Source: Flexistipes sinusarabici DSM 4947
GTDB taxonomy: Bacteria; Chrysiogenota; Deferribacteres; Deferribacterales; Flexistipitaceae
Direction of reading: 5' to 3'
NCBI RefSeq assembly: GCF_000218625.1
Contig: NC_015672.1
Coordinates: 1,550,001 to 1,614,000 of the forward strand
Length of the DNA: 64,000 bases
The notes below the pieces were generated by a model. It worked only from the letters and a program-made list of their open reading frames with translations, was not told the origin of the DNA and made no database searches. This document shows positions 11,543 through 64,000 of this stretch, piece after piece. Both the position numbers and the translations under genes were made by a program. How positions within the stretch are numbered: the stretch's first letter is position 1; every line of letters begins with the position of its first letter.

Positions 11543-11960
11543 CCTTTCTGGAAAAATCGACCTTAACAATTTTCCCGTTTGAAGACTTTACCCTGGATTT
11601 ATCAGCAGATTTTTCTTTATCTTTATTATTACCGCCGGACTCTTTTTCTGTATCCATCGAAAATTTAAAAACAAAATCCGGCTTGCCCGGGTCGTCAAAA
11701 ACAGTAACAATAGATTGAAAGGGTATAACAAGGGACTCCCATTTGCCCGAAAAACGCATATCTGCATAAAGGGCATTATTATCCCATCTCAGATTTTTAT
11801 ACGATGAAGCACCGAACACAAGCACAAGACCATGCTCACTCTCATTACCAACAAAGCCTCTTTCACCTATACGTATATCGCCGGCAGGAACAACATGCAT
11901 ATAAAATTTATCGTAAAAATCAAAAAGTAATTCCAGAACCTGTTTCTTAAATTTACTCAT
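11535..11960 (-). CDS. sspB: SspB-like ClpXP adaptor
   Basis: Adaptor that delivers ssrA-tagged and other substrates to the ClpXP protease. The 141-residue protein has the SspB fold signature LRWDNNALYADMRFSGKWESLVIPF in two parts around residues 55-85, followed by a Lys/Ser-rich linker and a short C-terminal tail (KIVKVDFSRKDD). The basic-hydrophobic end matches the ClpX-binding tail expected of SspB. It overlaps the channel gene by 8 bases. Upstream a terminator separates it from the minus-strand LysM gene. Confidence 0.8.
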   Translation of the reverse strand: MSKFKKQVLELLFDFYDKFYMHVVPAGDIRIGERGFVGNESEHGLVLVFGASSYKNLRWDNNALYADMRFSGKWESLVIPFQSIVTVFDDPGKPDFVFKFSMDTEKESGGNNKDKEKSADKSRVKSSNGKIVKVDFSRKDD

Positions 11961-11975
11961 AAATAATTAATAAAG

Positions 11976-12001
11976 AAGGGGATCCCAAAAGAGATCCCCT
12001 T
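11976..12001 (-). terminator. Terminator between the LysM gene and sspB
   Basis: Stem AAGGGGATC / GATCCCCTT (9 bp) with an 8-base loop. On the minus strand it is followed by CTTTATTAATTATTT, a moderately U-rich tail. It sits 45 bases after the stop of the LysM lipoprotein gene and probably ends that transcript. Confidence 0.65.
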
Positions 12002-12046
12002 TACATATTTCATTCACTTATGTCTTCACCAATAGAAACTTAAGCC

Positions 12047-12883
12047 TTATTTTCCGTCAAAGAGTGACCAAGGTCCTCTAGTCTTAGCGAAATTAATGGC
12101 TTCTTCTTTTTCACTATAGTAATAATCTTTATTGATGTTAAAGATCTGTCCGGGAAATATCAGATCAGGATCTTTAATTTCGTCTTTATTAGCCCAGTAT
12201 ATGAGAGGCCACATAAAGGGGTTCATGTATTTTCTGTCAGAAATATCCCAGAGTGTATCACCTTTTACAACGGTATATTTTTCAACACCTGAGGATTCTT
12301 TAGTAGTTTCTTCTTCTGCCGCCATACTTTCTTTCATTTCCTCAGCTTTTGCAGCTGCAATCTCTTCTTTGGCATCCTGCAGCCCTGCTTTAATTTCATC
12401 GATTAAAGCGTTAGCCTTGCCTGGTTCACAATCGTCAATATATCCCTGAGCCTCTTCGTATTTTGCCACAAGCTCGTCATAATTTCCAACGTTATATTTT
12501 TGTGCATCCGCTTCAATAGCATCAAGCTCTTTGCCTAATTCTTCAAGTTCGGCTGCTGCCCTATCGTTCTTTTTGGACATAGCCTTTGTCACTCTTTCAG
12601 CTTCTGCAGCTTTTTCCTGTGCAGCTTTCAGTCTCTTTTCAGCAGCATCATAATACTCACCTTTAAAGGTGTGATCTTTTGCTTCTTCCATCTGCTCTTC
12701 AGCAGCTTTAAGTTCTTCCATAGCTGCATTATACTCTTCTGTGGCACACTCTTTGGCATTATACTGTTCTGCAGCATTGAGTGCAGCTTTTGTGTCGTCA
12801 TACATTTTTACCGGAGCTTTTGCACATGCGAAAGCGAATGAAACAACCAGAGCAACTAAGCTCAAATATTTCAAAATTTTCAT
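12047..12883 (-). CDS. LysM-domain lipoprotein with coiled-coil core
   Basis: A 278-residue secreted protein. The signal peptide (MKILKYLSLVALVVSFAFAC) ends in a lipobox-like AFAC. A long Ala/Glu-rich coiled coil (about residues 30-190) follows, then a C-terminal LysM domain (YTVVKGDTLWDISDRKY ... PLIYWAN ... LIFPGQ) that binds peptidoglycan glycan. It probably links the outer membrane to the cell wall. The ATG at 12883 was chosen over an upstream in-frame start because GGAGGGAG lies just before it and the signal peptide begins there. The exact role is not known. Confidence 0.85.
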   Translation of the reverse strand: MKILKYLSLVALVVSFAFACAKAPVKMYDDTKAALNAAEQYNAKECATEEYNAAMEELKAAEEQMEEAKDHTFKGEYYDAAEKRLKAAQEKAAEAERVTKAMSKKNDRAAAELEELGKELDAIEADAQKYNVGNYDELVAKYEEAQGYIDDCEPGKANALIDEIKAGLQDAKEEIAAAKAEEMKESMAAEEETTKESSGVEKYTVVKGDTLWDISDRKYMNPFMWPLIYWANKDEIKDPDLIFPGQIFNINKDYYYSEKEEAINFAKTRGPWSLFDGK

Positions 12884-12955
12884 AACTCCCTCCGTATCTC
12901 TTATTATTTTAAAAATAACACATACTTTGCCAAAAGTCAAAGAAAGATATAAAGT

Positions 12956-14746
12956 TTATATATCTTCCACCATATCAAGCTTTAAACTTAATTCCTTCAG
13001 CTGTTTTTCATCAACAATACTCGGAGCATCGCTCATCATACACGTAGCCCTCTGGGTCTTAGGAAAAGCTATAACATCCCGTATCGATTCCGAACCGGTC
13101 AAAATCGTTGCAATCCTGTCAACACCGAAAGCAATACCGCCGTGAGGCGGAGTGCCATATTTGAGAGCATCCATAAAGAAACCAAACTTTCTCCTGCTTT
13201 CCTCTCTTGTCATACCGAGGGCATCAAACATTTTTTCCTGGACATCACTTCTGTGTATCCTAATACTACCCCCTCCTATCTCAGAACCGTTGAGAACAAG
13301 ATCGTAAGCTTTGGCTCTTATTTGTGAAGGGTCTGTGTCAAAATATTTGATATCCTCATCAACGGGTGCAGTAAAAGGATGATGCACGGCTGCGTAGCGT
13401 TTTTCATCCTCATCCCACTCAAGAAGAGGAAAGTCCGTAATCCAGACAAAATTGTATTTATTTTTATCGATAAGATTCAGCATTCTTCCCAGCTTGAGCC
13501 TTACCTTCGACATGTAGAGATTAACAATGCCAGTTTTGCCGGCTCCGAAAAAGATAATATCTCCGGCTTCTCCGCCCATTTCACTGACAATTTGGTCAGC
13601 CAGCTCTTCACCCAGAAATTTTACAATAGGAGACTGCAGACCGTCCTCGTTAACCCTGATATATGCAAGTCCCTTTGCTCCAAGACTCACAGCAAAATCT
13701 GTTAAATCATCAATATCCTTTCTGGAGAAATTGGTTGCATTTTTTGCATTAATTGCCTTTACCACTCCGCCGTTTTTTACACTGTCGGCAAAGACTTTAA
13801 ATCCGCAATCCTTCACAAGATCATTTATTGTTTTTAGATGAAGTCCAAATCTTGTATCAGGTGCATCGTGACCGAATTTTTCCATTGCCTCATCATAAGA
13901 CATTATCTCAAAAGGCTTTTTAACATCTACATCCATTATATCTTTAAATATTTTAACGAACAATTCTTCAATAAGTTTCATCAAATCTGCACGGTCAATA
14001 AAAGACAGTTCCATATCCAGCTGCGTAAACTCAGGCTGCCTGTCAGCCCGAAGATCTTCATCCCTGAAACATTTTACTATCTGAAAATACCTGTCAAAAC
14101 CTGATATCATAAGAAGCTGCTTAAACATCTGCGGAGACTGAGGCAACGCATAGAACCTACCCGGATTTACCCTGCTCGGCACGAGATAATCCCTTGCCCC
14201 TTCAGGTGTACTTTTTGTCAGAAAAGGGGTTTCAATATCAAGGAAATCTTTTTCATACAAAAACTCTCTTATCACCCGTATCAGCTGGTGTCTCAGTATA
14301 ATATTCTGCTGCAAAGCGGGTCTTCTCAAATCCAGGTATCTGTATTTGAGCCTTATGTCTTCGTTCGCATTGGAATGATTTTCTATAACAAACGGTGGAG
14401 TTTCGGATTTATTCAGAATCTTCAATTCGTTTACATAAACTTCCACTTCACCCGTGGGCAGAGAAGAGTTAACAGTCCCTTCAGGCCTGTGTTCCACCTT
14501 TCCCTTAGCGGCAATAACGAACTCATTTCTGACGTTATCTCCAAGCTCATGCACTTCTTTATCAAATTCAGGGTTAAGTACTATCTGGGTAACCCCGTCA
14601 CGATCCCTGAGGTCGATAAAAATAACACCGCCATGGTCTCTTCTGCGCTGAACCCATCCCATGACAACAACTTCTTCTCCGATATTACCGGCTCTCAGTT
14701 CACCGCAACTATGCGTTCTTCTCCAGCTACCTAAATGTGACAGCAC
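12956..14746 (-). CDS. aspS: Aspartyl-tRNA synthetase
   Basis: Charges tRNA-Asp with aspartate (class II synthetase, bacterial type with GAD insert). The protein has the N-terminal OB anticodon-binding domain (GWVQRRRDHGGVIFIDLRDRDG in two adjoining parts), class II motif 1/2 region (RYLDLRRPALQQN, FTQLDMELSF, CFRDEDLRADRQPEF), the GAD domain in the middle and motif 3 GIAFGVDRIATILTG near the end. The GTG at 14746 is preferred: AAGGAGG lies 5 bases upstream, inside a longer open frame beginning at 14761. hisS ends 25 bases upstream, so the two synthetase genes are cotranscribed. Whether it also charges tRNA-Asn cannot be judged here. Confidence 0.95.
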   Translation of the reverse strand: MLSHLGSWRRTHSCGELRAGNIGEEVVVMGWVQRRRDHGGVIFIDLRDRDGVTQIVLNPEFDKEVHELGDNVRNEFVIAAKGKVEHRPEGTVNSSLPTGEVEVYVNELKILNKSETPPFVIENHSNANEDIRLKYRYLDLRRPALQQNIILRHQLIRVIREFLYEKDFLDIETPFLTKSTPEGARDYLVPSRVNPGRFYALPQSPQMFKQLLMISGFDRYFQIVKCFRDEDLRADRQPEFTQLDMELSFIDRADLMKLIEELFVKIFKDIMDVDVKKPFEIMSYDEAMEKFGHDAPDTRFGLHLKTINDLVKDCGFKVFADSVKNGGVVKAINAKNATNFSRKDIDDLTDFAVSLGAKGLAYIRVNEDGLQSPIVKFLGEELADQIVSEMGGEAGDIIFFGAGKTGIVNLYMSKVRLKLGRMLNLIDKNKYNFVWITDFPLLEWDEDEKRYAAVHHPFTAPVDEDIKYFDTDPSQIRAKAYDLVLNGSEIGGGSIRIHRSDVQEKMFDALGMTREESRRKFGFFMDALKYGTPPHGGIAFGVDRIATILTGSESIRDVIAFPKTQRATCMMSDAPSIVDEKQLKELSLKLDMVEDI

Positions 14747-51362: not shown

Positions 51363-51407
51363 AACAGTTAATACAGAAGCGGGAAAACCGCATCTGCATT
51401 AACTGTT
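51363..51407 (-). terminator. Terminator-like hairpin overlapping the stop of the CoA-disulfide-reductase-like gene
   Basis: Long stem: AACAGTTAATACAGAAGCGG (51363-51382) pairs with the complement of the segment 51388-51407 at 18 of 20 positions, loop GAAAA. The distal arm includes the gene's stop codon (51399-51401). On the minus strand the following bases (ACTGCATCTTTACTG) are only mildly T-rich, so termination is likely but not certain. Confidence 0.6.
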
Positions 51408-52724
51408 TAGAAGTTTCTCAGCGGCCTGAACTATAGCGTTGCTGGCAGGAAAAAACGTTTGAAAAGGCTGAGCACAATAGCTGAATTGAAACAAATCATA
51501 TGCAGTAGAATTTTTCTGGATTGCAAAGGAAATCACATCAATGAACTGCGGAACACTTTCACCGGCAACAACCTCTGCCCCTAAAATTCTTAAGGTATTT
51601 TTTTCAGCAATCAGTTTTACATAGACTTTGGTGGCACCCGGAATCATAGGAAATCTTGTGGTGGTTTCCCCTACAGCAGTCATAATATCAAAACCCCTTT
51701 GCCTTGCCATTTCCTCGCTGAATCCTGTACCTCCCATACGCCAGTTTACGCACTTTGTTATGGCACCATTAATAAAACCCGGATAGGAATAGTTTTTGCC
51801 GAGTATCCGGTAAGCGCATATTTTAGCCATAGGTACCGCATTTGTAGCAAGTTTCCCGCCCAGCGGTTTTTTGTCAATGTAGGAAATGTAACTCGTACAG
51901 TCGCCCACAGCATATACATCTTCAATATTAGTTTCCATATATTCGTTTACTTTTATACCGTCGTTATCAATCTCAAGCGGTGAGTTTTTAAAAATTTCAA
52001 CATTGGGCTTAACACCGACACACATGATCACCATATCATTTTCTGCCAAAGTAATAGACTCATTATTGGAAAGCTTTACTTTTTCAACACGCTCTTTTCC
52101 TGTTAATTCATCAACTGCAACATTCAACTTCAGATTAATACCAAGTTCAACAATTTCTTTTTCCGGTAATTTGGAAAGTTCTTTACTTAGCATATTGGGA
52201 ACCACTCTGTCCTGCATCTCCACAAGGTAAGTTTCGATACCTTTGTGCTTTAAAGCCACCGACATTTCTATACCGATGTTACCTGCACCAACAACAACTG
52301 CCTTTTCAGCACCTTTCTCCACGCATTCCAATATCTGATCTAAGTCGCTTTCCGTTTTTACAGATACGACATTTTTAAGCTCACCCCCGTCAATAGGAGG
52401 GATAAAAGGGGTTGCACCTGTCGAAATGATAAGTTTATCATAATTATAATTTCCGGAAAGTTCTGTTTTTACTACTTTATTTTCAAAATCAACATTGACA
52501 GCCTTATCTTTTACAAGTGTTGCTCCGGTTTCTGTTATCAAATTGTCACTCTTACGGACTTTCTGTCTATCCACTAAATCTTCTACAACATACGGCAGAG
52601 CACAATATATAACGCTGTAAGGCTCAGGACGTATTACAGTGACATCGATCTCAGGGTTATGCGCCTTCAACGTCTTAGTTGACTGTATACCGCCCGGACC
52701 GCCGCCAATAACCAGTACTTTCAT
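51399..52724 (-). CDS. CoA-disulfide reductase / NADH oxidase-like flavoprotein
   Basis: A 441-residue FAD/NAD-dependent oxidoreductase. It has VLVIGGGPGGIQS at the start, the single active Cys in PYSVIYCALPYVV near residue 41 as in CoA-disulfide reductase and NADH oxidases, VVVGAGNIGIEMSVAL near 145 and NIEDVYAVGDCTSY near 270. Relatives reduce CoA disulfide, polysulfide (as in NADH-dependent sulfur reductase) or O2; sulfur chemistry is attractive next to the reductase island but not shown. The ATG at 52724 has GGAGGTG upstream. Confidence 0.82.
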   Translation of the reverse strand: MKVLVIGGGPGGIQSTKTLKAHNPEIDVTVIRPEPYSVIYCALPYVVEDLVDRQKVRKSDNLITETGATLVKDKAVNVDFENKVVKTELSGNYNYDKLIISTGATPFIPPIDGGELKNVVSVKTESDLDQILECVEKGAEKAVVVGAGNIGIEMSVALKHKGIETYLVEMQDRVVPNMLSKELSKLPEKEIVELGINLKLNVAVDELTGKERVEKVKLSNNESITLAENDMVIMCVGVKPNVEIFKNSPLEIDNDGIKVNEYMETNIEDVYAVGDCTSYISYIDKKPLGGKLATNAVPMAKICAYRILGKNYSYPGFINGAITKCVNWRMGGTGFSEEMARQRGFDIMTAVGETTTRFPMIPGATKVYVKLIAEKNTLRILGAEVVAGESVPQFIDVISFAIQKNSTAYDLFQFSYCAQPFQTFFPASNAIVQAAEKLLNS

Positions 52725-53087
52725 AGCCACCTCCATTTATATATTGATATATGAATATTTGTATATTTATTTTTGGCATTTGTCAATTTATTTGCAAAAT
52801 AAATAGCCAGAAGCTTAGCCTCATAAAACAGAGTGAAACTAAGAACTCCTGCTTTTTTTAAATATTAAGTATACCAATACCTCAAATACATTTTTTATAT
52901 ATAACGAAATAAAATACAAAAATGATAAAATAAAAAAATATTCTGTGTTTGCAAAATACAATAATTCTAATTTTTTTTAATAAAATATTTAGCGTTATAA
53001 GCTTATGCTGTTATAAACCAAACTTTTTACATGCAAACCGATATCCACCTTTACAAGCATATGATTATTACAAATCAAACTCAAAAC
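52725..53087. other. AT-rich intergenic region between divergent genes
   Basis: About 360 very AT-rich bases between the CoA-disulfide-reductase-like gene (minus) and the first DUF134 gene (plus). It must hold both promoters. ATAAGCTTAT at 52997-53006 is a perfect 10-bp palindrome flanked by a repeated GTTATAA (52994-53000 and 53010-53016). No gene is credible. Confidence 0.4.
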
Positions 53088-53148: not shown

Positions 53149-53631
53149 ATGCCTCGTCCACCTAAAGAAAGATTGGTTATGCACCGGCCTCGGATTAATG
53201 AATTCGGGCCATACAATGACAACAAACCAAACAAAGATGAATCCTTAGAAAACAATGGTAATACGACAATTTTAACTCTTGATGAGCTGGAGGCAATGAG
53301 GCTTGCTGATCTTGAATGTTTGTCACAGGAAGAAGCGGCGGCACTGATGAATGTATCGAGGCAAACCTTCGGCAGGATAGTTGAAATAGCCAGAAAAAAA
53401 ATGGCGGATGCTCTGATAAACGGCAAGATTGTCAAAATAGAGTGCAAAGAATACATAAGATTTTATAAGAGACATTTAAAATGCATCAGATGCGCCCATG
53501 AATGGGAAGATTCGGATGGTGCAAAAACAAACTACTATTGCCCCAAATGCAACTCTGATGAAATAATAAAAATGAGAAGGTGCGGTAAAGAGTGTAAATG
53601 CCCCTTAAAATTAACCGGCAATATACCCTAA
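53149..53631 (+). CDS. DUF134 (UPF0251) DNA-binding protein, probable regulator of the first reductase operon
   Basis: A 160-residue protein. It begins MPRPPKERLV, has the LTLDELEAMRLADLECLSQE and EAAALMNVSRQTFGRIVEIA sigma-like helix-turn-helix core near residues 40-80, and a C-terminal zinc-ribbon-like region with paired Cys (CIRCAHEW ... YYCPKCNSDE ... CGKECKCP). The ATG at 53149 has AAGGAG upstream. DUF134 genes commonly sit near metal or redox genes, and are likely metal- or redox-linked regulators. It lies 203 bases before psrA on the same strand. Confidence 0.85.
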   Translation: MPRPPKERLVMHRPRINEFGPYNDNKPNKDESLENNGNTTILTLDELEAMRLADLECLSQEEAAALMNVSRQTFGRIVEIARKKMADALINGKIVKIECKEYIRFYKRHLKCIRCAHEWEDSDGAKTNYYCPKCNSDEIIKMRRCGKECKCPLKLTGNIP

Positions 53632-53651
53632 ATCCCTACCCGTTGTGTCTG

Positions 53652-53671
53652 TTATTGGCAAATGCTTTTAA
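53652..53671 (+). promoter_or_regulatory. Imperfect second copy of the reductase-operon site
   Basis: TTATTGGCAAATGCTTTTAA matches the palindrome at 53708-53727 in 16 of 20 positions, with an intact left half. It is 56 bases upstream of it. It may be an additional regulator contact. Confidence 0.35.
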
Positions 53672-53707
53672 AATTATTGTACAGAAATATCTTTTCAGAT
53701 ACCTTCT

Positions 53708-53727
53708 TTATTGGCATATGCCATAAA
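53708..53727 (+). promoter_or_regulatory. Palindromic operator candidate upstream of first psr operon
   Basis: TTATTGGCAT|ATGCCATAAA, centred at 53717/53718, with a perfect 12-bp core TGGCATATGCCA. The right half ATGCCATAAA recurs unchanged in the same setting upstream of the second operon (63159-63178). It lies about 27 bases before the TTGACA box. Confidence 0.6.
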
Positions 53728-53753
53728 TGCCTGATAATAAAGCAAAAAAAATA

Positions 53754-53782
53754 TTGACAGCCCATTCCTTTAATTATATTTA
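53754..53782 (+). promoter_or_regulatory. Candidate promoter of the first psr operon
   Basis: TTGACA (53754-53759), 17 bases, then TATTTA (53777-53782). The -35 is consensus and the -10 is fair. psrA starts 53 bases after it. Confidence 0.55.
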
Positions 53783-53834
53783 TCTATATTCAAACATATG
53801 GATAAAGTGAAACACCAAAACAAGGGGGCAAAAT

Positions 53835-56159
53835 ATGTCTTTATTGAAAACCAAGCTCAACAGGAGGAAGTTCCTTGCTTACAGTGGGGGTACTCTTGCA
53901 GCCGGGGCAATGGCTTCTAAATTCTCAACGATCAAAGCCGTTGCATCGGAACACGGTAAACAAAGTAAAGAGTCGGGAAGCAAAACTGTTCCCAGCGCAT
54001 GTGCAATATGCGTCAACAAATGCTCTTTATTTGCCGATGTCAAAGACGGGGTAATTCATAAACTAAACCCCAATCACAACTTCTTTAAATCCAGGTCTAT
54101 GCTGTGTGCCCGGGGGAATGTGGGAGCTAAAGTGCCCTACTCTCCGGACAGATTGAAAAAGCCTTTAATAAGAACCGGCAAACGCGGTGAAGGTAAATGG
54201 AAAGAAGTAAGCTGGGATGAGGCTTACGATTACATTATTGAAAATGTAATAAAACTGATAAACAAATATGACAACAGATCTTCCATCGCATTTGCTTCCA
54301 CGGAAGGCTTGCAGGAAGAATTTTTCAGGCACCTGACATCCGTAGTTGGATCAACGAACAGTGTACGTCATCCTACGCTGTGTCTTGCTTCCAATATTCA
54401 GGGATACTCTTCTGTTTACGGCACATTGCCAGATGCTGACATTGCCAACGCAAAGTTTGTTGTTATGGCCGGCTCCAACAGGGCGGAAGCTTTTATTACA
54501 CCTGACACAATTGATCTGGCGAAAAAACATAAAGAACAGACTTTTGTATATCTTGATCCGCGTGCAACAAAATCTGCAGCTCTTGCAGACAAATGGTTCC
54601 CGATAAAACCTGGTACTGATATGGCAGTTGTTCTGGCCATGATTAATGTCATCATCTCTGAAGAGTTATACGACAAGGAATTTGTTAACAAATATACACA
54701 CGGTTTTGATCAGTTGAAAGAACACGTTAAGGAAAATACGCCGGAATGGGCTGAAAAGGAAAGCGAGATCCCTGCAGATGAAATAAGATGGATGGCAAGA
54801 AAATTCGCTGAAAATGCCCCGGCTTCTGTATGGTATCCTGGAAGAAGAAGTTCTTTTACTGCCAATGATGTTTACTACAGAAGAGCATGCGCTATTCTTA
54901 ATGCAATAGTTGGAGCCTGGGACAGAAAGGGAGGTCTTATACCCAAGTCCGGTATAAGTCTGAAATCTCACGAGTTCATTTTTCCTCTTTATGACAGGGT
55001 TAAAAACAGAATAGACGGCGGAAAGGTAAATTTTGCAGCTGATATTCTCCCTGAATATATAAAATCCAACAAAGGGATGCCCAAAGATGAAGTGGCTTAT
55101 CTTTCAGAAGCTGACGGAAGCTGGGTACTGTTCAGGGATGCTATATTAAAGCAAAAACCGTATCCCGTAAAAGGGATGTTTGTTTACAAGCAAAACCCGG
55201 TTGAATCTGTTCCCAACAGATCTAAAACACTGGAAATGCTGAAATCTATGGAATTCATATGTACAATCGATATCCAGATGTCCGATACTGCATGGTATTC
55301 AGATGTAGTTCTCCCTGAATCCACATATCTGGAAAGATGGGATCCGGCTCATAGCTTAGGCGGTGTTGCGCCGGTAGTGATTTTCAGAAAACCTGTTATA
55401 GATCCTCTTTTTGATACAAAATCCATGAAGGATATTACCGTTGATTTAACTGAAAGATTCCTTAAGAAAGAGGAGTTCTGGGTTGATGCCTGGGAAGAAG
55501 ATAAGGCTTATATGAGGGATTATGTCAAAACATTCAAAGGTGTTCCCATGTCTCATATTATAGAGCATCAACTTTCGGATTATCCGGGTGCATACAAGAT
55601 GCTGATGGAAAAGGGATGCTTTTACAAAACAGATAAAATTCCATACGGCAAAACCCTTAAAGAAGGCGCCAGACTCAAAACAAAAACGGGTAAAATTGAA
55701 CTTGCCAGCGTAAGGTACCCGGAAGCAGGTCTACATGCCCTCCCGGTTTATCAGAAACCATCTGAAGCTCCGCAAGGTAAATACAGATTTGTTGTGGGAA
55801 GACACGCACAGTTTACTCAGGCAAACACACAAAATGTACCTTATCTGCTGGAAGCTTACGGGCACTACACAAACATGCTTTGGATACATCCTAAATCCGC
55901 ACTCAAACAGGGATTGAATGACGGGGACTATGCAATTGTTAAAAGTTCCGTGGGAGAGCAAAAGGTAAAAGTTCACGTCACTGAATATACAAGACCGGAT
56001 ACAGTCTTTTATCTTCATGGTTTCGGACGGCTGTCCAAGTGGCTTACTAATGTTTATAAAGTTGGCGCTTCGGATGCCGAAATACTGGAAGATTATGCCG
56101 AGACAATATCCGGGAATGCTTTATTGCACGAAACATTTGTAGAAATAAAAAAAGCTTAG
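53835..56159 (+). CDS. psrA: Molybdopterin oxidoreductase, polysulfide/thiosulfate reductase A-type catalytic subunit (copy 1)
   Basis: Catalytic, Mo-bis-MGD subunit of a quinol-linked sulfur-compound reductase, exported by Tat. The 774-residue protein begins with LNRRKFLAYSGG, a twin-arginine signal. A [4Fe-4S] site CAICVNKCSLFADVKDG with MLCARGN near residue 95 follows, then the probable Mo-ligand Cys in RHPTLCLASNIQG, PDTIDLAKKH, FVYLDPRATKSAA and PGTDMAVVLAM. The C-terminal molydopterin-binding domain ends with KKA. Substrate (polysulfide, thiosulfate, tetrathionate, or another) is not decided by sequence. It heads a three-gene operon. Confidence 0.88.
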   Translation: MSLLKTKLNRRKFLAYSGGTLAAGAMASKFSTIKAVASEHGKQSKESGSKTVPSACAICVNKCSLFADVKDGVIHKLNPNHNFFKSRSMLCARGNVGAKVPYSPDRLKKPLIRTGKRGEGKWKEVSWDEAYDYIIENVIKLINKYDNRSSIAFASTEGLQEEFFRHLTSVVGSTNSVRHPTLCLASNIQGYSSVYGTLPDADIANAKFVVMAGSNRAEAFITPDTIDLAKKHKEQTFVYLDPRATKSAALADKWFPIKPGTDMAVVLAMINVIISEELYDKEFVNKYTHGFDQLKEHVKENTPEWAEKESEIPADEIRWMARKFAENAPASVWYPGRRSSFTANDVYYRRACAILNAIVGAWDRKGGLIPKSGISLKSHEFIFPLYDRVKNRIDGGKVNFAADILPEYIKSNKGMPKDEVAYLSEADGSWVLFRDAILKQKPYPVKGMFVYKQNPVESVPNRSKTLEMLKSMEFICTIDIQMSDTAWYSDVVLPESTYLERWDPAHSLGGVAPVVIFRKPVIDPLFDTKSMKDITVDLTERFLKKEEFWVDAWEEDKAYMRDYVKTFKGVPMSHIIEHQLSDYPGAYKMLMEKGCFYKTDKIPYGKTLKEGARLKTKTGKIELASVRYPEAGLHALPVYQKPSEAPQGKYRFVVGRHAQFTQANTQNVPYLLEAYGHYTNMLWIHPKSALKQGLNDGDYAIVKSSVGEQKVKVHVTEYTRPDTVFYLHGFGRLSKWLTNVYKVGASDAEILEDYAETISGNALLHETFVEIKKA

Positions 56160-56177
56160 TAAGTAAGAGGTGAAAAT

Positions 56178-56798
56178 ATGAGTGAAAACAGCAGAGCTTT
56201 AAAGCTTGCGGAAGCTAACCAGAAGCTTGCACATAAAAGAAGAAACGCAAAAGAAAAATGGGGGATAGTTCTCGATACCTCAAAATGTATAGACTGTAAA
56301 GCATGCACCGTAGCATGCAAAATGGAAAACTACGTACCTGTCGGATTCTATAATTACAGAATCTGGGTGGCAGAAGATACGCATTATGCCAATTATCCCA
56401 CCATAAGCAGAAGTTTTCAGCCTTCACAGTGCCAGCAGTGCGAAAATCCGCCCTGTGTTCATGTCTGCCCAACACACGCCTCCTACAAAACGGCTGATGG
56501 TGTTGTTATGGTGGATGCAGACAAATGCATTCTCTGTAAATACTGCATGACCGCATGCCCTTATGATGCCAGATATGAAAGCCACACTACAGAAGCCATT
56601 GACAAATGTACTTTTTGTTACCAGCGCAGAGAAGAAGGCAGAGATCCTGCATGTGTGGAAACCTGCCCTCCTAAAGTAAGGGTGTTCGGCGATCTTAATG
56701 ACCCGAACAGCGAAGTTTACAAACTTTTGGCAGAAAATGAATACACGGTTTTGAAACCTGGAAAAGGAACAAAACCGAAACTCAAATATATAAAATAG
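56178..56798 (+). CDS. psrB: Four-cluster ferredoxin subunit (PsrB-type, copy 1)
   Basis: Electron-transfer subunit of 206 residues with four [4Fe-4S] motifs: CIDCKACTVACKMEN, CQQCENPPCVHVCPT, CILCKYCMTACPYDA and CTFCYQRREEGRDPACVETC. It carries electrons from the membrane subunit to PsrA. Compared with copy 2 it has an N-terminal extension of about 22 residues that is Lys/Glu-rich. The gene follows psrA by 18 bases. Confidence 0.92.
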   Translation: MSENSRALKLAEANQKLAHKRRNAKEKWGIVLDTSKCIDCKACTVACKMENYVPVGFYNYRIWVAEDTHYANYPTISRSFQPSQCQQCENPPCVHVCPTHASYKTADGVVMVDADKCILCKYCMTACPYDARYESHTTEAIDKCTFCYQRREEGRDPACVETCPPKVRVFGDLNDPNSEVYKLLAENEYTVLKPGKGTKPKLKYIK

Positions 56799-56807
56799 GA
56801 GGCAAAA

Positions 56808-57986
56808 ATGACTACCAACGTATCAACCATGAACGTTTTTGCTAAAAACGATAAAATATCCAATATATGGTTAATATTAACCTTGCTTATCTCGCTTTTA
56901 GGTGTATACGGTTTATTCAACGTTCTGATTAACGGCCATGATGTTTACGGCGTTACCAGAACGGTTCCCTGGGGGATTTTGATTTCCACATATGTATTTT
57001 TTGTGGTTTCCAGTACAGGGCTTTGCCTAGTCTCTTCTATGGGGCACGTTTTCGGAATTGAAAATTTTGAAGTCATCGGAAAAAGATCAATCATACTGGC
57101 AATATTTACTCTGTTGTGTGGTTTTGGTGTCATTGCCCTGGAACTCGGACACCCTTTCAGAATGATGATATACAATGTAATCTCACCCAATTTCAAGTCA
57201 GCCATCTGGTGGATGGGTACTTTATACGGTATATACCTGGTATTTATCATTGTTGAATTTTACTTTCTGATGAAGCATAATCATAAAGGTGCATTTTACG
57301 CAGGACTTGGAGGTTTTCTGGCGGGGATATCAGCACACTCAAACCTCGGAGCAGTGTTTGGTCTTCTGGAAGCAAGACCTTTCTGGCACGGTCCTTACCT
57401 GCCGATTTATTTTATACTTTCAGCTCTGATATCTGGATCTGCTCTGATTATAATCATATTCTTTGTAGCTTACAGATCCCCTTCCAACATGCCTGAAAAA
57501 GTAGTGAAGGTTTTAAAGAGCATCACCAAAATTTTCGGTTTCCTTATTGGTGTATTGATATTTTTTGATATCTGGAAAGTTATCACCTCAATTTACGGAG
57601 CACCCCCAGAAAAATTTGAAGCTGTACAGACACTGCTTTCCGGCCAGCTGGGCGTCAACTTTTGGTTGTTTGAAGTTGCTTTGGGAATGTTAATACCATT
57701 TTTCATAATTATTTTTACAAAAGGAAGAAACATTAAAGCAAGTCTCGTTGCAGCTATCTCAGCAGTAATAGGAATCTTTTATATGAGATATGATCTGGTA
57801 ATCGCCGGTCAGCTTGTTCCAATGAGAGAACCGGCTCCGGGAGCTCATGTGCAGGGAGCACTTCCCAACGGACTGGTATCTTATACTCCCTCTTTCACCG
57901 AAGTATCAATTGTTATAGGTGCGATAGCTTTCTGTGCATTTCTCTATCTAATGGCAGAAAAATATCTTAATTTAAACGAAGAATAA
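56808..57986 (+). CDS. psrC: NrfD/PsrC-type membrane anchor (copy 1)
   Basis: A 392-residue polytopic protein, about eight or nine transmembrane helices, that oxidises menaquinol for the complex. The PWGILISTYVFFVVSSTGLC region near residue 45, GHVFGIENFE and GIYLVFIIVEFYFL are like NrfD family members. The ending is hydrophobic then LAEKYL-like. It is followed at once by a terminator. Confidence 0.9.
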   Translation: MTTNVSTMNVFAKNDKISNIWLILTLLISLLGVYGLFNVLINGHDVYGVTRTVPWGILISTYVFFVVSSTGLCLVSSMGHVFGIENFEVIGKRSIILAIFTLLCGFGVIALELGHPFRMMIYNVISPNFKSAIWWMGTLYGIYLVFIIVEFYFLMKHNHKGAFYAGLGGFLAGISAHSNLGAVFGLLEARPFWHGPYLPIYFILSALISGSALIIIIFFVAYRSPSNMPEKVVKVLKSITKIFGFLIGVLIFFDIWKVITSIYGAPPEKFEAVQTLLSGQLGVNFWLFEVALGMLIPFFIIIFTKGRNIKASLVAAISAVIGIFYMRYDLVIAGQLVPMREPAPGAHVQGALPNGLVSYTPSFTEVSIVIGAIAFCAFLYLMAEKYLNLNEE

Positions 57987-57991
57987 AAAGA

Positions 57992-58015
57992 ACGGGCCCC
58001 GTTTATGGGGCCTGT
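57992..58015 (+). terminator. Terminator at the end of the first psr operon
   Basis: Stem ACGGGCCCC / GGGGCCTGT (9 bp, one G-U) with loop GTTTAT, followed by CTTTC. It lies 5 bases after psrC and just before the convergent NifX-like gene's end, so it may serve both. Confidence 0.75.
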
Positions 58016-58021
58016 CTTTCA

Positions 58022-58378
58022 TTAATGCTCTGAACAATTACCTGAACCCGCACAAAATTCATTTGAGGAATTTACATTTCCTTTTAAATATTCTGATACT
58101 ATTTTCACCGGTTTATCATTGTTTATACCTGTGATCACTTTTATTCCGTAATCATTTAAAAAAACTTTCGCCCTGCCTCCAATGCTTTTAGTCAGCAAAA
58201 TATCCACATTTTCACTTTTTAACCACTTCGGATAAACCCCGGGAGCATGTTCAGGCGGTGTTTGTGTAAATTCACGAACAATCTCACCATCATCAGCAAT
58301 ATCAGCAACAAAAAACGAATCTGCTCCTCCGAAATGATCACTAACTTCATTATTAATAAGCGGTATTGATATCCTCAT
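58022..58378 (-). CDS. NifX/NifB-like dinitrogenase cofactor-type domain protein
   Basis: A 118-residue protein of the dinitrogenase iron-molybdenum cofactor family. Signatures are ISIPLINNEVSDHFGGADSFF at the start (in adjoining parts), LTKSIGGRAKVFLNDYGIKVI and a C-terminal tail with two Cys (EFCAGSGNCSEH). These small proteins bind or move Fe/Mo-S clusters. There is no nitrogenase in view, so a role in Mo or Fe-S supply for the reductases is plausible but inferred. It overlaps the DUF5320 gene by 26 bases. Confidence 0.8.
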   Translation of the reverse strand: MRISIPLINNEVSDHFGGADSFFVADIADDGEIVREFTQTPPEHAPGVYPKWLKSENVDILLTKSIGGRAKVFLNDYGIKVITGINNDKPVKIVSEYLKGNVNSSNEFCAGSGNCSEH

Positions 58379-58562
58379 GGTTAATTCTCCCTACGTCTGT
58401 TTTATTTCCATGTCTGCCTCTACAAGTTTTGTGTCTGCATCTTCCATAGCGCGGTCTGTCTCTTTCAAGTCTGGCAAATTCACTGTTGTCACTACATTTT
58501 CCTAAACCCCTACCCGTTTTAGAGCCGTTTCCAAAAGGGCCTCTTCTGTCTAATCCGGGCAT
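58353..58562 (-). CDS. DUF5320-like small protein
   Basis: A 69-residue, Gly/Arg-rich protein: MPGLDRRGPFGNGSKTGRGL near the start, then CSDNSEFARLERDRPRYG with later paired Cys/His (RCRHKTCRGRHG). The start MPG-D-R-x-GP-x-G is typical of DUF5320 proteins that often accompany NifX-like and DUF134 genes. It follows the second DUF134 gene by 10 bases and overlaps the NifX-like gene. Function unknown. Confidence 0.75.
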   Translation of the reverse strand: MPGLDRRGPFGNGSKTGRGLGKCSDNSEFARLERDRPRYGRCRHKTCRGRHGNKTDVGRINHEDINTAY

Positions 58563-58572
58563 ATCTCACCCC

Positions 58573-58941
58573 CTATTTACACTTATGTTTGAATTTATTA
58601 CTATTGCCATCTAACACTTCAAGTCCGCATTTATCACACTGCTGCCTGGTCACAAATTCTATATTACCGCCTTTAATAATGAGCTCTTTAGCCCCCACAA
58701 GGAAATCAGCTACTTTGTGTCTGGCTCTCACAATAAGACGTGAAAATGTCGGTCTTGAAATATTCATCAGGAGAGCGGCATTTTCATGATCATATCCCAA
58801 ATAATCAGCAAGTCTGATTGCTTCGAACTCATCAATTGTTAAATCTACTTTATCAAGTTTGACAGATGGTAAGCCACTCGGTTTAAAATTTTTTACTTCC
58901 GGGTCATAGCCAACAAATCTTATTTTATCTTGTCTGGGCAC
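58573..58941 (-). CDS. DUF134 DNA-binding protein, second copy
   Basis: A 122-residue regulator-like protein. I place the start at GTG 58941 (protein MPRQDKIRFVGYDP) because AAGGAG lies 6 bases upstream and this matches the usual MPR start of the family; an in-frame extension to 59115 is thus not coding. It has LTIDEFEAIRLADYLGYDHE and ALLMNISRPTFSRLIVRARH, the helix-turn-helix core, and one C-terminal Cys pair (QCDKCGL, HKCK). It follows psrC copy 2 by 94 bases, with a hairpin in the gap. Confidence 0.85.
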   Translation of the reverse strand: MPRQDKIRFVGYDPEVKNFKPSGLPSVKLDKVDLTIDEFEAIRLADYLGYDHENAALLMNISRPTFSRLIVRARHKVADFLVGAKELIIKGGNIEFVTRQQCDKCGLEVLDGNSNKFKHKCK

Positions 58942-59005
58942 TTCAAACTCCTTATGAACAAAAAAATCACACTTGCCTGCAACTCTAATTTTTTGAGATA
59001 AAGCC

Positions 59006-59025
59006 GACCCGTCTGTTAACGGGTC
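59006..59025 (-). terminator. Hairpin after the second psr operon
   Basis: Stem GACCCGT / ACGGGTC (7 bp) with a 6-base loop, 10 bases after the psrC copy 2 stop. The T-tract on the minus strand (GGCTTTATCTC) is weak, so it may be a terminator, or a processing/attenuating hairpin before the DUF134 gene. Confidence 0.5.
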
Positions 59026-59035
59026 AGCAAAATTG

Positions 59036-60223
59036 TTAATGTTCCTTTGTATCCAAGAGGAGGAAACGTTCTGCAAGAAAATATAAAACCAGAAATACCC
59101 CCCATCCGAGAGCAAATATCATCCATTCAACAGCTGAGGGAGAATATTGAGCTAATCCATTTACTGTATGAACACCTGAACCGGGCAATCCTTCCCTCAT
59201 TGGAGGAAGCTGACTGGCAACAATAAAATCATACCGGGTAAAGAATAAGCCGACCATAAAAATTATACCGGCGATGCCTAATGCCTTCATATTGGACGCC
59301 TTTGAAAACACTATTATTGCAAGCGGTAAAACTACGGCGAGAAGCAATTCCCCAACCCAAAAATTCATACTTAACGGACCGGTGAGCAGCGCTTTTGCTG
59401 CAAGATAACTATCCCCGGGCTGAGTATACAGAGATGAAAGTATTTTCCACAGATATAAAAATATCATTACTCCGATTCCGGCTCCCATAAGTTTGCCAAG
59501 AGCTTTCATACTGCTGTGAAGACTCTCGGGAACTTTAAATTTGTAAATTATATTATGAATTGCCAGTAAAAGAGCAGCACCGGCTGTTATACCTGAAATT
59601 ACCAGAAATATTGAAAAATATACTCCATGATAGAATGGTCTTGCATTTAAAGAACCGAAAACATACCCAAGGTTACTGGTTGCAAGAACCCCAACAAGAA
59701 GTGCAAAAAATCCGACAATTTTAGCCGTATTATGATCCGACTCTTTCTTATTAGGTTTAAATATTATATACAACTCCACTGCAAGTATAACAAGTTCAAT
59801 CCCGTAAAATACACCCATCCAAACAATCGGAGCGCTCAAATTTGGAGAAAGGATGAGATATATCATTAGTCTTATGGGGTGGCCTATTTCCATTCCTATC
59901 TGTGTAAAACCAGCTAATAAAATCACAAAGGCCATTACTACAATACGCTTGCTCATTTTTGAGTATTTCTCGAAGCCAAAAGCATGTCCCAGTCCGCCTA
60001 TAAAAGCCAGACCTGTTGATGTAATTACAAAATATGCATATGTGGCTATCAATAATCCCCAAGGTACTTCTCTGTTTACAGCATACACAGCTTCATGACC
60101 CTGCAAAAATACCTGCAATGAAGCATATCCCCCGATACCAAGCAAGATCAACCCTAAAACAATCAACGAAGTGGTTAAGGTCTTACCTGCTACATTTGAT
60201 ACTTTTTCTGTGTGAGTGGTCAT
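59036..60223 (-). CDS. psrC: NrfD/PsrC-type membrane anchor (copy 2)
   Basis: A 395-residue polytopic protein homologous to copy 1: AVNREVPWGLLIATYAYFVI near residue 45, GLGHAFGFEKYSKMSKRIVV, EIGHPIRLMIYLILSPN and LPPMREGLPGSGVHTVNG match corresponding segments of the plus-strand copy. It is the membrane/quinol subunit. It lies 15 bases after the ferredoxin gene, on the same strand. Confidence 0.9.
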   Translation of the reverse strand: MTTHTEKVSNVAGKTLTTSLIVLGLILLGIGGYASLQVFLQGHEAVYAVNREVPWGLLIATYAYFVITSTGLAFIGGLGHAFGFEKYSKMSKRIVVMAFVILLAGFTQIGMEIGHPIRLMIYLILSPNLSAPIVWMGVFYGIELVILAVELYIIFKPNKKESDHNTAKIVGFFALLVGVLATSNLGYVFGSLNARPFYHGVYFSIFLVISGITAGAALLLAIHNIIYKFKVPESLHSSMKALGKLMGAGIGVMIFLYLWKILSSLYTQPGDSYLAAKALLTGPLSMNFWVGELLLAVVLPLAIIVFSKASNMKALGIAGIIFMVGLFFTRYDFIVASQLPPMREGLPGSGVHTVNGLAQYSPSAVEWMIFALGWGVFLVLYFLAERFLLLDTKEH

Positions 60224-60238
60224 GGCAAACCTCCTTTA

Positions 60239-60790
60239 TTAATCTACATAGAACAAACGAGGCCTTGTATTAACACTAGGCTTCAGTCTGTAATATGAAT
60301 TCTTAGCCAAAAGCTTACTTGCTTTACTTTTCGGATCATTTATGTCACCAAACACTCTGACCTTTGTCGGACACGTTTCTACACAGGCCGGATCCCTGTC
60401 AGGAAGTCTGTGGTAACACATGGTGCATTTCTCCACTACTTCCAGATGCTCATCAACAAACCTGGCATCATAAGGGCAAGCGGTCATGCACGCTTTGCAC
60501 AAAACACATTTATCATAATCAACCAGCACAACACCTTCTTCTGTTTTATAAGTGGCATTGGTGGGGCATACACTTGCACAGGGGGTGTTTTCACAATGCT
60601 GGCACTGGGAAGGCTGGAAAGTTTGAGTTAAATCAGGAAAATTCCCATGCACCCTGTTTTCTGTTACCCATATTCTATAAGTTTCCTGACCCACAGGAAC
60701 ATTATTTTCAAACTTACAGGCTACAGTGCAAGCTTTGCAGTTTAAGCACTTACTTGCATCCAATACTATTGCATATTTTTTTTTCGCCAT
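60239..60790 (-). CDS. psrB: Four-cluster ferredoxin subunit (PsrB-type, copy 2)
   Basis: A 183-residue protein with four [4Fe-4S] motifs: CLNCKACTVACKFEN, CQHCENTPCASVCPT, CVLCKACMTACPYDA and CTMCYHRLPDRDPACVETC. Strongly similar to copy 1 but without the Lys-rich N-terminal extension and one residue shorter in the fourth Cys spacer. It begins 11 bases after the psrA stop. Confidence 0.92.
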   Translation of the reverse strand: MAKKKYAIVLDASKCLNCKACTVACKFENNVPVGQETYRIWVTENRVHGNFPDLTQTFQPSQCQHCENTPCASVCPTNATYKTEEGVVLVDYDKCVLCKACMTACPYDARFVDEHLEVVEKCTMCYHRLPDRDPACVETCPTKVRVFGDINDPKSKASKLLAKNSYYRLKPSVNTRPRLFYVD

Positions 60791-60801
60791 TTGTGCACCT
60801 C

Positions 60802-63132
60802 TTAAGCTTTTCTTATTTCAACAAACGTTTCATGCATAGCCGCATTACCTGAAATTGAGTCAACATAATCTTCCAGGATAGCGGCCTGTGAAGCACCGGT
60901 TTTGTAAACTAAAGACAATCCTTTAGACAGACGCCCGAAGCCGTGTGTATAAAAGATACAATCCGGTCTGATTTTCCTGGTGACTTTTGCCTTAATTTTT
61001 TGTTCTCCTACAGGACTTTTGACATAAACGTAGTCACCATCCATAATTCCTAACTCAAGTGCTCTTTTATCGTTTATCCATACAGCATTTTCAGGCTCAA
61101 TTTCGTGCAAATATTCGTTATTTTGTGTCCCGGAATGGGTGTTCCATGCGTGTCTGCCTAAAATCATTCTGAATTCGTTGGGTTTGGGCTGAGGAGGTGA
61201 TGCATAAACGGGGAGTGGGTTTAATCCGTCATTTTCGTATCGAACATTGTAAATTTCTATCTTTCCCGTCTTTGTTTTATATCTGAAATCTTTCTTTTTT
61301 ATTTTTCCATATTTTGCTTTATCATCAAGATAAAATACCCCTTCTTTAAGCATCATTTCATAAGCTCCGGGGTATTTGGAAAGTTGATGTTCTATAAATT
61401 TCTCTGTAGGCTGATTTAGTATAGGCTCAACAACAGTTTCTTTAAAAGTTTTAACATCTGACTCCCAGCAATCGTCCCATAATGAAGGGATTTTAAGCAT
61501 TTCATTGACAATTCCGGCAGTGATCTCTTTCATGGATTTAGTATCAAATATAGGCTCAATAACAGGTTGTCTTGCTACAACAATAGGCCATATCCCCGAA
61601 AGAGAATGGCAGGGATCCCATCTTTCCAGGTATGTGGATTCAGGAAGAACAAGATCAGAATACCATGCAGTATCCGACATCTGGATATCTATTGTGCAGA
61701 TAAACTCCATTTGCTGCATCATTTCTAATGTTTTTTCTCTGTTGGGAACTGCTTCAACCGGGTTCTGTTTAAAGACAAACATACCTTTTACAGGATACGG
61801 GTCAGATTTAAGTATTGAATCTCTGAAAACAATCCAGCTGCCGTCTTTCTCACTTAAATATGCACAGCTGTCTTGAGGGAGGCCTTCTTTGGCCCTCTCA
61901 TCATTTGGTATTAAATTTTTGATAGATGATTTTCTGCTGACATCTATGCGCGGCTTAACCATTTCATAAAAGGGATATAAAGCGCCATCATGCTTATTAA
62001 GAGGTATTGATGATTTTGGAACGATACCCCCCGGCTCATCCCAACTACCTGTAATTGCTGTCAAAATGGCACATGCACGTCTGAAGTATACATCATTCAC
62101 ATACCAAGATGTTCTTCTGCCCGGATAAACAACACTTCTGGGGGCATATTTGGCATATTCACGAGCTATCCATCTAATCTCATCAGCCTGGATTTCACAC
62201 TCTTTTTCAGCCCATTCCGGTGTATACTGTTTTACAAGTTTTACAAGGTCTTCAAAACCGTATGTGTATTTATTGACGAAATTTTCATCATACAGATTTT
62301 CATTTACAATAACATGAATTAGAGCCAATACAAAAGCAAGGTCAGTCCCGGGCTTAATAGCATACCACTTGTCTGATTTTGCGGCTGTGGATGTAAAACG
62401 GGGATCCACATAAACGAGCGTTTGCTTTTTGGGCATGGATTTTTGAAAATCAATTGTGTCCGGTGTTACAAAAGATTCGGCTCTGTTAGCTCCGAGCATC
62501 AAAACAAAATCAGCTTCCGTTAAGTCAGCATCGGGATATGTGCCAAAAACAGATGACCATCCCTGAATAACCGATGCCAAACACAAAGTGGGATGTCTTA
62601 CTGTATTAGTGGACCCGTAAGAAGTTGATAGCATATTGAAAAACTCTTCCTGAAAACCTTCGGTTGAAACAAAGGCTACAGAAGATCTGTTTTGATATTT
62701 TTGTTTTAATTCTGCCAGCTTTTCAGCAGCCAGCTTATAAGCCTCTTTCCAGCTTATTTCTTTCCATTTTCCTTCACCGCGTTTACCAACACGCAAAAGC
62801 GGTTTTTTTAATCTGTCAGGATTATAAGGCTCAGCAGCCCCGGCATTTCCTCTTGCACAAAGCATGGAGCGGGATTTGAAAAACTTGTGATTTGGGTTTA
62901 GTTTTTCAATTCTGCCATCCGCCACATGTGCAACAAGACCGCATTTGTTAACACACATTCCGCATGCAGACGGTATAAACTTTTCTTTGCCCTTTGAAGA
63001 GTTGAGGGTTGAATGTTCACTTGCGGTCGCTTTTACAGTGTTAAACAACCCTCCCGCTGCAATAGAAGATGCAGCAGCACCTGATACCTGAAGAAACTTT
63101 CTCCTGGATAAACCTAACTGCCCTTTTCCCAT
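60802..63132 (-). CDS. psrA: Molybdopterin oxidoreductase, polysulfide/thiosulfate reductase A-type catalytic subunit (copy 2)
   Basis: A 776-residue catalytic subunit. Twin-arginine signal LSRRKFLQVSGAA, [4Fe-4S] Cys set CGMCVNKCGLVAHVADG with MLCARGN, and RHPTLCLASVIQG with the probable Mo-ligand Cys. By eye it is about 70% identical to copy 1 across the 55 residues around that Cys, less elsewhere. The ATG has GGAGG upstream. The substrate may differ from copy 1; sequence alone does not say. Confidence 0.88.
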   Translation of the reverse strand: MGKGQLGLSRRKFLQVSGAAASSIAAGGLFNTVKATASEHSTLNSSKGKEKFIPSACGMCVNKCGLVAHVADGRIEKLNPNHKFFKSRSMLCARGNAGAAEPYNPDRLKKPLLRVGKRGEGKWKEISWKEAYKLAAEKLAELKQKYQNRSSVAFVSTEGFQEEFFNMLSTSYGSTNTVRHPTLCLASVIQGWSSVFGTYPDADLTEADFVLMLGANRAESFVTPDTIDFQKSMPKKQTLVYVDPRFTSTAAKSDKWYAIKPGTDLAFVLALIHVIVNENLYDENFVNKYTYGFEDLVKLVKQYTPEWAEKECEIQADEIRWIAREYAKYAPRSVVYPGRRTSWYVNDVYFRRACAILTAITGSWDEPGGIVPKSSIPLNKHDGALYPFYEMVKPRIDVSRKSSIKNLIPNDERAKEGLPQDSCAYLSEKDGSWIVFRDSILKSDPYPVKGMFVFKQNPVEAVPNREKTLEMMQQMEFICTIDIQMSDTAWYSDLVLPESTYLERWDPCHSLSGIWPIVVARQPVIEPIFDTKSMKEITAGIVNEMLKIPSLWDDCWESDVKTFKETVVEPILNQPTEKFIEHQLSKYPGAYEMMLKEGVFYLDDKAKYGKIKKKDFRYKTKTGKIEIYNVRYENDGLNPLPVYASPPQPKPNEFRMILGRHAWNTHSGTQNNEYLHEIEPENAVWINDKRALELGIMDGDYVYVKSPVGEQKIKAKVTRKIRPDCIFYTHGFGRLSKGLSLVYKTGASQAAILEDYVDSISGNAAMHETFVEIRKA

Positions 63133-63814: not shown

Positions 63815-64000
63815 TCAAATCATTCTTAAAGCACCCTTTCTCAGATTATATGCCATACAATGTATAGACAATTCCAGCCTAACCTTATCAATACCTATAA
63901 ATCGGCTACGAGTATAACCAAAATGAAGCTTAATCAATCCAATTGCCTGCTCAACGACATAACGAACCTTGCTTACTGCCTTGTTATGAAATTTCTGAAA
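63815..64000 (-). mobile_element. C-terminal end of an IS5-like transposase (continues past the window edge)
   Basis: The minus strand from 64000 to the stop at 63815-63817 is open for 61 codons and reads KVRYVVEQAIGLIKLHFGYT then SRFIGIDKVRLELSIHCMAY and NLRKGALRMI. VEQ-x-x-G-x-x-K, then a basic stretch and IHCMAYNLRK, are the C-terminal signature of DDE transposases of the IS5 type. The rest, including the catalytic triad, lies beyond the window. Exact IS family cannot be fixed from this piece. Confidence 0.8.

Follow-up and report, generated by a model that had tools for sequence, protein, structure and literature searches.

A DUF134 protein as the probable regulator of two facing Psr-type reductase operons in Flexistipes sinusarabici

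The occurrence of two complete psrABC operons lying tail to tail in Flexistipes sinusarabici DSM 4947 raises the question of how such a duplicated respiratory module is controlled and what the small genes around it contribute. We analyzed this island within a window of 64 kb, taken from a genome of 2,526,590 bp in a single contig. A preliminary description of the window had proposed a duplicated, diverged Psr-type module with its own regulators and a possible metal-cluster delivery pair. All of the genes that it named were found, each psr gene with its expected Pfam domain in a search of the window proteins, and Pfam matches confirmed one DUF134 gene ahead of the first operon and a DUF134-DUF5320-NifX series behind the second. 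The regulatory DNA of the island (52.7-53.1, 53.63-53.83, and 63.13-63.51 kb) and a gene divergent from the first DUF134 gene had been overlooked. On the comparisons below, DUF134-I is probably a dedicated regulator, and probably an activator, of both operons. The genes concerned are as follows.

53149-53631, plus strand: DUF134-I (PF02001), predicted helix-turn-helix (HTH) regulator with helix VSRQTFGRI and a C-terminal Cys-rich ribbon
53835-56159, plus strand: psrA-I (PF00384, PF01568, PF04879), molybdopterin catalytic subunit exported by the twin-arginine (Tat) route
56178-56798, plus strand: psrB-I (PF13247), ferredoxin-type electron-transfer subunit
56808-57986, plus strand: psrC-I (PF03916), NrfD-type membrane anchor
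58022-58378, minus strand: NifX-like gene, single PF02579 domain, candidate sensor partner of DUF134
58353-58562, minus strand: DUF5320 small protein (PF17253, E 4.4e-10)
58573-58941, minus strand: DUF134-II (PF02001), PTFSRL helix class, GTG start after AAGGAG
59036-60223, minus strand: psrC-II (PF03916), NrfD-type membrane anchor
60239-60790, minus strand: psrB-II (PF13247), ferredoxin-type subunit
60802-63132, minus strand: psrA-II, Tat-exported molybdopterin catalytic subunit

The two DUF134 genes are the only ones in the whole 2.53-Mb genome and score 76.3 and 86.1 bits against the PF02001 gathering cutoff of 27 bits. Likewise, the NifX-like gene (58.4 bits) is the sole PF02579 gene of the genome.

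The palindrome GCATATGC recurs in the upstream regions of the loci that we read. To avoid circularity, we searched de novo for words around 48 DUF134 genes outside the phylum, with 700 bp on each side. The top 8-mer was again GCATATGC, present at 17 loci against 1.15 expected, and it forms the core of the full palindrome TTATNRGCATATGCYNATAA. The usual distance from these sites to the DUF134 start is 20-40 bp, one example being TATAATGAGCATATGCTCATAATA, and about ten families from other phyla have the word immediately ahead of a DUF134 gene. A 22-bp matrix built solely from the foreign sites was then scanned over the 64-kb window. Its eight best matches all fall within the three promoter regions of the island, which together make up about 1 kb. 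They are given here without strand unless one is stated.

53707-53728: putative primary operator of psrA-I, TTTATTGGCATATGCCATAAAT, 21.7 bits, the best match in the window
53651-53672: putative second operator of psrA-I, GTTATTGGCAAATGCTTTTAAA, 19.1 bits
63488-63509: operator-like site upstream of psrA-II, 15.1 bits
63276-63297: operator-like site upstream of psrA-II, 14.7 bits
53050-53071: operator-like site upstream of DUF134-I, 14.7 bits, suggestive of autoregulation
52769-52790: operator-like site in the divergent promoter region of DUF134-I and a reductase gene, 12.6 bits
63158-63179: operator-like site just before psrA-II, minus strand GTTTATGGCATGTGCTATAAAT, 11.3 bits
52994-53015: weak operator-like site upstream of DUF134-I, 8.6 bits

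Shuffled windows gave a mean maximum of 11.9 bits; the lower matches are convincing through their position, not through score alone. Pattern searches of the whole genome gave a similar picture. The 53707 site is the only one with at most one mismatch to the palindrome, the 53651 site is the only addition at two mismatches, and 6 of the 49 sites with up to three mismatches lie in this 11-kb island. Exact GCATRTGCYATAAA occurs only twice, once ahead of each psrA, and the psrA-II copy is the 63158 site. In genomes G001, G002, G008, G009, and G021, sites resembling the one at 53050 precede DUF134-I by about 80 bp. Other candidate words were discarded: six GCATATGCCATAAA matches in relatives are internal to the gene for a single conserved protein with the motif FLWHMHQP, and TCTGGGCA and GCCCAGAC, which are enriched near the other DUF134 class, derive from the conserved gene start MPRP.

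We then compared psrA genes with and without a DUF134 neighbor within 6 kb, counting sites that scored 14 bits or more in the 400 bp ahead of psrA. A site was present at 17 of 22 psrA genes with such a neighbor and at 1 of 80 without one (Fisher p = 5e-14, a value that overstates independence, as related genomes were counted). The contig carrying the lone exception (L055) stops inside the operon, and the DUF134 genes of the same genome are on L056. The 45 relatives together had 28 sites, of which 11 lay no more than 400 bp from a DUF134, NifX, or psrA gene. The word also distinguishes helix classes, being present in 19 of 39 upstream regions of the TFG class, to which DUF134-I belongs, and in none of 30 of the TFS/TFT class, which includes DUF134-II. 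Because it goes with the TFG class and never with that of DUF134-II, we take DUF134-I to be the likely reader of all of the sites. The idea that the module has its own regulators stands as far as linked regulator genes are concerned, but on this contrast it is better read as DUF134-I alone serving both operons.

The predicted structure of DUF134-I (mean predicted local distance difference test score, 85) is consistent with this role. Its HTH superposes on DNA-bound sigmaE region 4 with a root mean square deviation of 0.8 A over 47 residues, and also on DNA-bound DeoR; the Cys-rich ribbon follows the HTH. A profile match likewise relates DUF134 to Sigma70_r4_2, and a Foldseek search with the model returned no whole-chain match at an E value of 0.001 or better. 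DUF134 combines a DNA-binding fold with a palindrome that is conserved in several phyla ahead of the DUF134 gene itself, as is expected of a site-specific transcription factor. Downstream of the two strong sites lies a predicted psrA-I promoter:

53754-53782, plus strand: TTGACA, 17-bp spacer, TATTTA, predicted from the sequence

The center of the psrA-I operator is 36 bp from the start of this -35 element, and families f1, f5, and f7 share a distance of 36-37 bp. The operator would then be centered near -71 of the transcription start, a position typical of class I activators. Because of this placement, activation is the likelier sign of control at psrA-I. The positions of the sites before psrA-II vary. 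Nearly all Deferribacterales have another palindrome, TGTATATTGTATACA, ahead of psrA-II, whether DUF134 is present or not (L044, L052, L053, L057, L059, L065, and others). It overlaps a likely -10 box, which suggests either another regulator or a conserved core promoter.

The two copies have diverged considerably, sharing 60% identity in PsrA, 63% in PsrB, 42% in PsrC, and 36% in DUF134. In a tree of 68 PsrA sequences, which included the Thermus polysulfide reductase (PSR) as the only characterized enzyme, psrA-I and psrA-II formed separate clades with Shimodaira-Hasegawa-like approximate likelihood ratio test (SH-aLRT) support of 99 and 100, respectively, the former including two Calditerrivibrio-like members. 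Each clade covers the four Deferribacterales families f1, f5, f7, and f8; the duplication is therefore older than these families, and by sequence comparison the split is old and order-wide. The preliminary description is upheld here: rather than one recent PsrA clade lacking associated small genes, we found two old orthogroups with DUF134-I linked. The Deferribacter pair has been called a recent duplication, postdating the split of D. autotrophicus and D. desulfuricans (PMC6896113); this is contradicted by G016, taken as D. desulfuricans, which has one copy from each clade. The facing arrangement was already published for F. sinusarabici, where it is described as a duplication with inversion, and for Deferrivibrio metallireducens and D. 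essentukiensis (PMC11896075, Fig 4), and the tandem arrangement of Deferribacter was described in the same paper; both were reproduced in the loci compared here. Several individual loci depart from the general pattern. In one f5 genome (L054 of G013, 10751-13075), the psrA of a type-I operon, with type-I psrB, psrC, and DUF134, falls inside the psrA-II clade, as it would after gene conversion. In G040 (L041, 5288-7690), an in-frame TAG splits psrA-I, reflecting a pseudogene or a sequencing error. The two other Flexistipes genomes (L045 and L046) have an additional, third PsrA-type operon, which is distant and encodes a short PsrC; F. sinusarabici DSM 4947 lacks it.

The small genes differ in how closely they travel with psr. 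DUF134-I is upstream of psrA-I at every psr-I locus read from f1, f5, f7, and f8. In three Seleniivibrio-like genomes it sits upstream of psrA-II, and the Calditerrivibrio-like genome G003 has no DUF134 upstream of its psrA. The psrA loci from other phyla have no DUF134 gene close to psrA; at a single locus the distance is about 6 kb. The psr-linked DUF134-I proteins all fall in one clade of the DUF134 tree (SH-aLRT 96). DUF134-II follows psrC-II in f1, f7, and f8 and groups with DUF134 genes located away from psr in f5. NifX and DUF5320 stand directly behind DUF134-II only in Flexistipes (both Flexistipes genomes). The NifX-like gene can be tied to the regulator, because natural DUF134-PF02579 fusions exist in three genomes (L174, 1904-2686; L245, 1053-1772; L259, 1523-2194) and operators are found upstream of NifX genes in some others. 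The fusions suggest that NifX is a sensing partner rather than a means of cofactor delivery. Beside psr in f7 and f8 we also observed genes for SBP_bac_11 periplasmic binding proteins (L052, 14453-15430; L055, 6935-7927; L053, 9849-10793), which in f7 are preceded by operator-like sites.

What do the reductases reduce? Both PsrA proteins have a twin-arginine RRKFL start, an N-terminal Fe4S4 Cys set, and a Cys that aligns with the conserved Cys of Thermus PSR. This enzyme (2vpw) is the nearest solved relative of PsrA-I (E 1.2e-107) and matches PsrA-II at E 3.5e-118; among solved structures, ArrA, acetylene hydratase, and formate dehydrogenases trail it by far for both proteins. Each operon encodes the components of the Psr/Phs branch, namely, a Tat-exported Fe4S4 catalytic subunit, a ferredoxin subunit, and an NrfD anchor. 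The copies fall below the curated cutoffs of other enzymes: 519.5 and 538.2 bits against 694 for the PhsA equivalog PRK15488 and, for the NCBIfam models, 83-97 against 1750 for TtrA, 207-221 against 1600 for ArrA, and 264-281 against 778 for DmsA/YnfE. Relatives with both operons are reported to reduce S0 and not thiosulfate, which speaks against thiosulfate as the acceptor in those organisms. We infer that the acceptor of both reductases is most likely polysulfide or a sulfur chain. In two f5 genomes (L066, 1277-6405; L041, 2-4292), psr-I is preceded by genes of the flavocytochrome c sulfide dehydrogenase-like, delta-chaperone-like, and DUF3373 types, neighbors that fit sulfur chemistry. In Deferrivibrio metallireducens, both copies of the orthologous pair are reported to go down with nitrate (PMC11896075). 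One further gene borders the island:

51399-52736, minus strand: CoA-disulfide-reductase-like flavoprotein, oriented divergently to DUF134-I and possibly part of the regulon (TIGR03385, 277.6 bits, under the cutoff of 578.8)

At the other end, an apparent transposase gene end (63815-64000 of the window, minus strand) abuts the psrA-II upstream region.

Could the palindrome instead be bound by a different regulator, with the DUF134 genes merely in its regulon? The TGTATATTGTATACA element before psrA-II indicates that other regulators may act here. Nonetheless, we regard this explanation as unlikely: the palindrome immediately precedes DUF134 genes in some ten families from other phyla, as is usual for autoregulation, it is missing from psrA genes that lack a DUF134 neighbor, and it never accompanies the TFS/TFT class. 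Less probable still is the metal-cluster delivery suggested in the preliminary description, in which DUF134-II, DUF5320, and NifX would act as a set in maturing the reductases. The three genes are adjacent in both Flexistipes genomes, and in Deferribacter a looser series of DUF5320, Mrp-type ATPase, and NifX genes comes after DUF134-II. However, adjacent NifX or DUF5320 is missing at most orthologous psr pairs, Psr enzymes carry a molybdopterin cofactor and not FeMo-co, and the NifX-DUF134 fusions, like the operators upstream of NifX genes, fit regulation; the delivery pair is therefore not supported. An ordinary lineage-specific duplication that left redundant copies under no special regulation would account for the identical operon order and family, and the duplication as such is already on record (PMC11896075). 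We give this very little credence, as it is contradicted by two orthogroups kept across four families and by an operator scan that yielded nonrandom sites with conserved spacing.

Regulation of both operons by DUF134-I remains the reading that we favor, and several observations weigh against it. The helix-class contrast rests on about one independent change in the tree, with too few pairs for a phylogenetically independent test. No site was found before psrA-II in the three Seleniivibrio-like genomes that carry DUF134-I there. Within the 150 bp upstream of Flexistipes DUF134-I there is no exact GCATATGC, only near-matches, and the 63158 site taken alone (11.3 bits) falls among the maxima obtained from shuffled windows. 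For F. sinusarabici, S0 reduction is recorded as negative (PMC6896113).

We propose that the duplicated periplasmic Psr/Phs-type module is governed by one local switch. DUF134-I, probably as a dimer, would recognize TTATNRGCATATGCYNATAA through its HTH, with two binding sites ahead of psrA-I, as many as three ahead of psrA-II, and further binding in the region that separates the DUF134-I and flavoprotein genes. It would more likely activate than repress psrA-I, and sites near the DUF134 start in Flexistipes and other genomes suggest that it may regulate its own expression. In each operon, the A subunit would be the exported molybdopterin reductase, B the Fe-S subunit, and C the NrfD-type quinol-oxidizing anchor, so that each complex would pass electrons from menaquinol to an external acceptor, for which polysulfide or a sulfur chain is the likeliest candidate. 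More tentatively, and with less confidence than we place in the local switch, DUF134 might be a family of transcription factors that crosses phyla and shares a single ancestral operator, GCATATGC flanked by AT-rich arms, the adjacent or fused NifX-like domain being a signal receiver that reports a metal-sulfur species and not a nitrogenase cofactor carrier. If correct, these proposals would assign to the DUF134 family, which occurs in several bacterial phyla and in archaea, both a function and a precise DNA target, and would do the same for its frequent NifX-like neighbor. They would also supply a candidate dedicated regulator of Psr-type sulfur respiration in Deferribacterota, where nitrate reportedly shuts these operons down.

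Compared with known systems, the reductases resemble Thermus thermophilus PsrABC (2vpw-2vpz) in their subunit families and full-length PsrA similarity, but the Thermus protein is distant from Flexistipes PsrA in the tree. The NrfD/Psr operons reported for Deferrivibrio, Deferribacter, and F. sinusarabici (PMC11896075, PMC6896113) represent the same locus; the passages on it mention neither DUF134 nor an operator. The facing duplication being already published (PMC11896075), regulation is the new part. In the literature searched we found no description of a regulatory function or operator for DUF134, and several of the matches probably refer to different DUF families whose numbers begin with these digits. 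Both Flexistipes DUF134 proteins belong to DUF134/UPF0251 (PF02001) by the curated cutoff and share its sigma-70 region 4-like HTH. The NifX-like protein scores far below the MrpORP cutoff (84 against 450 bits). Like the NifX-like/MTH1175-type proteins, it consists of a single PF02579 domain, which here is encoded beside DUF134 and in other genomes is fused to it.

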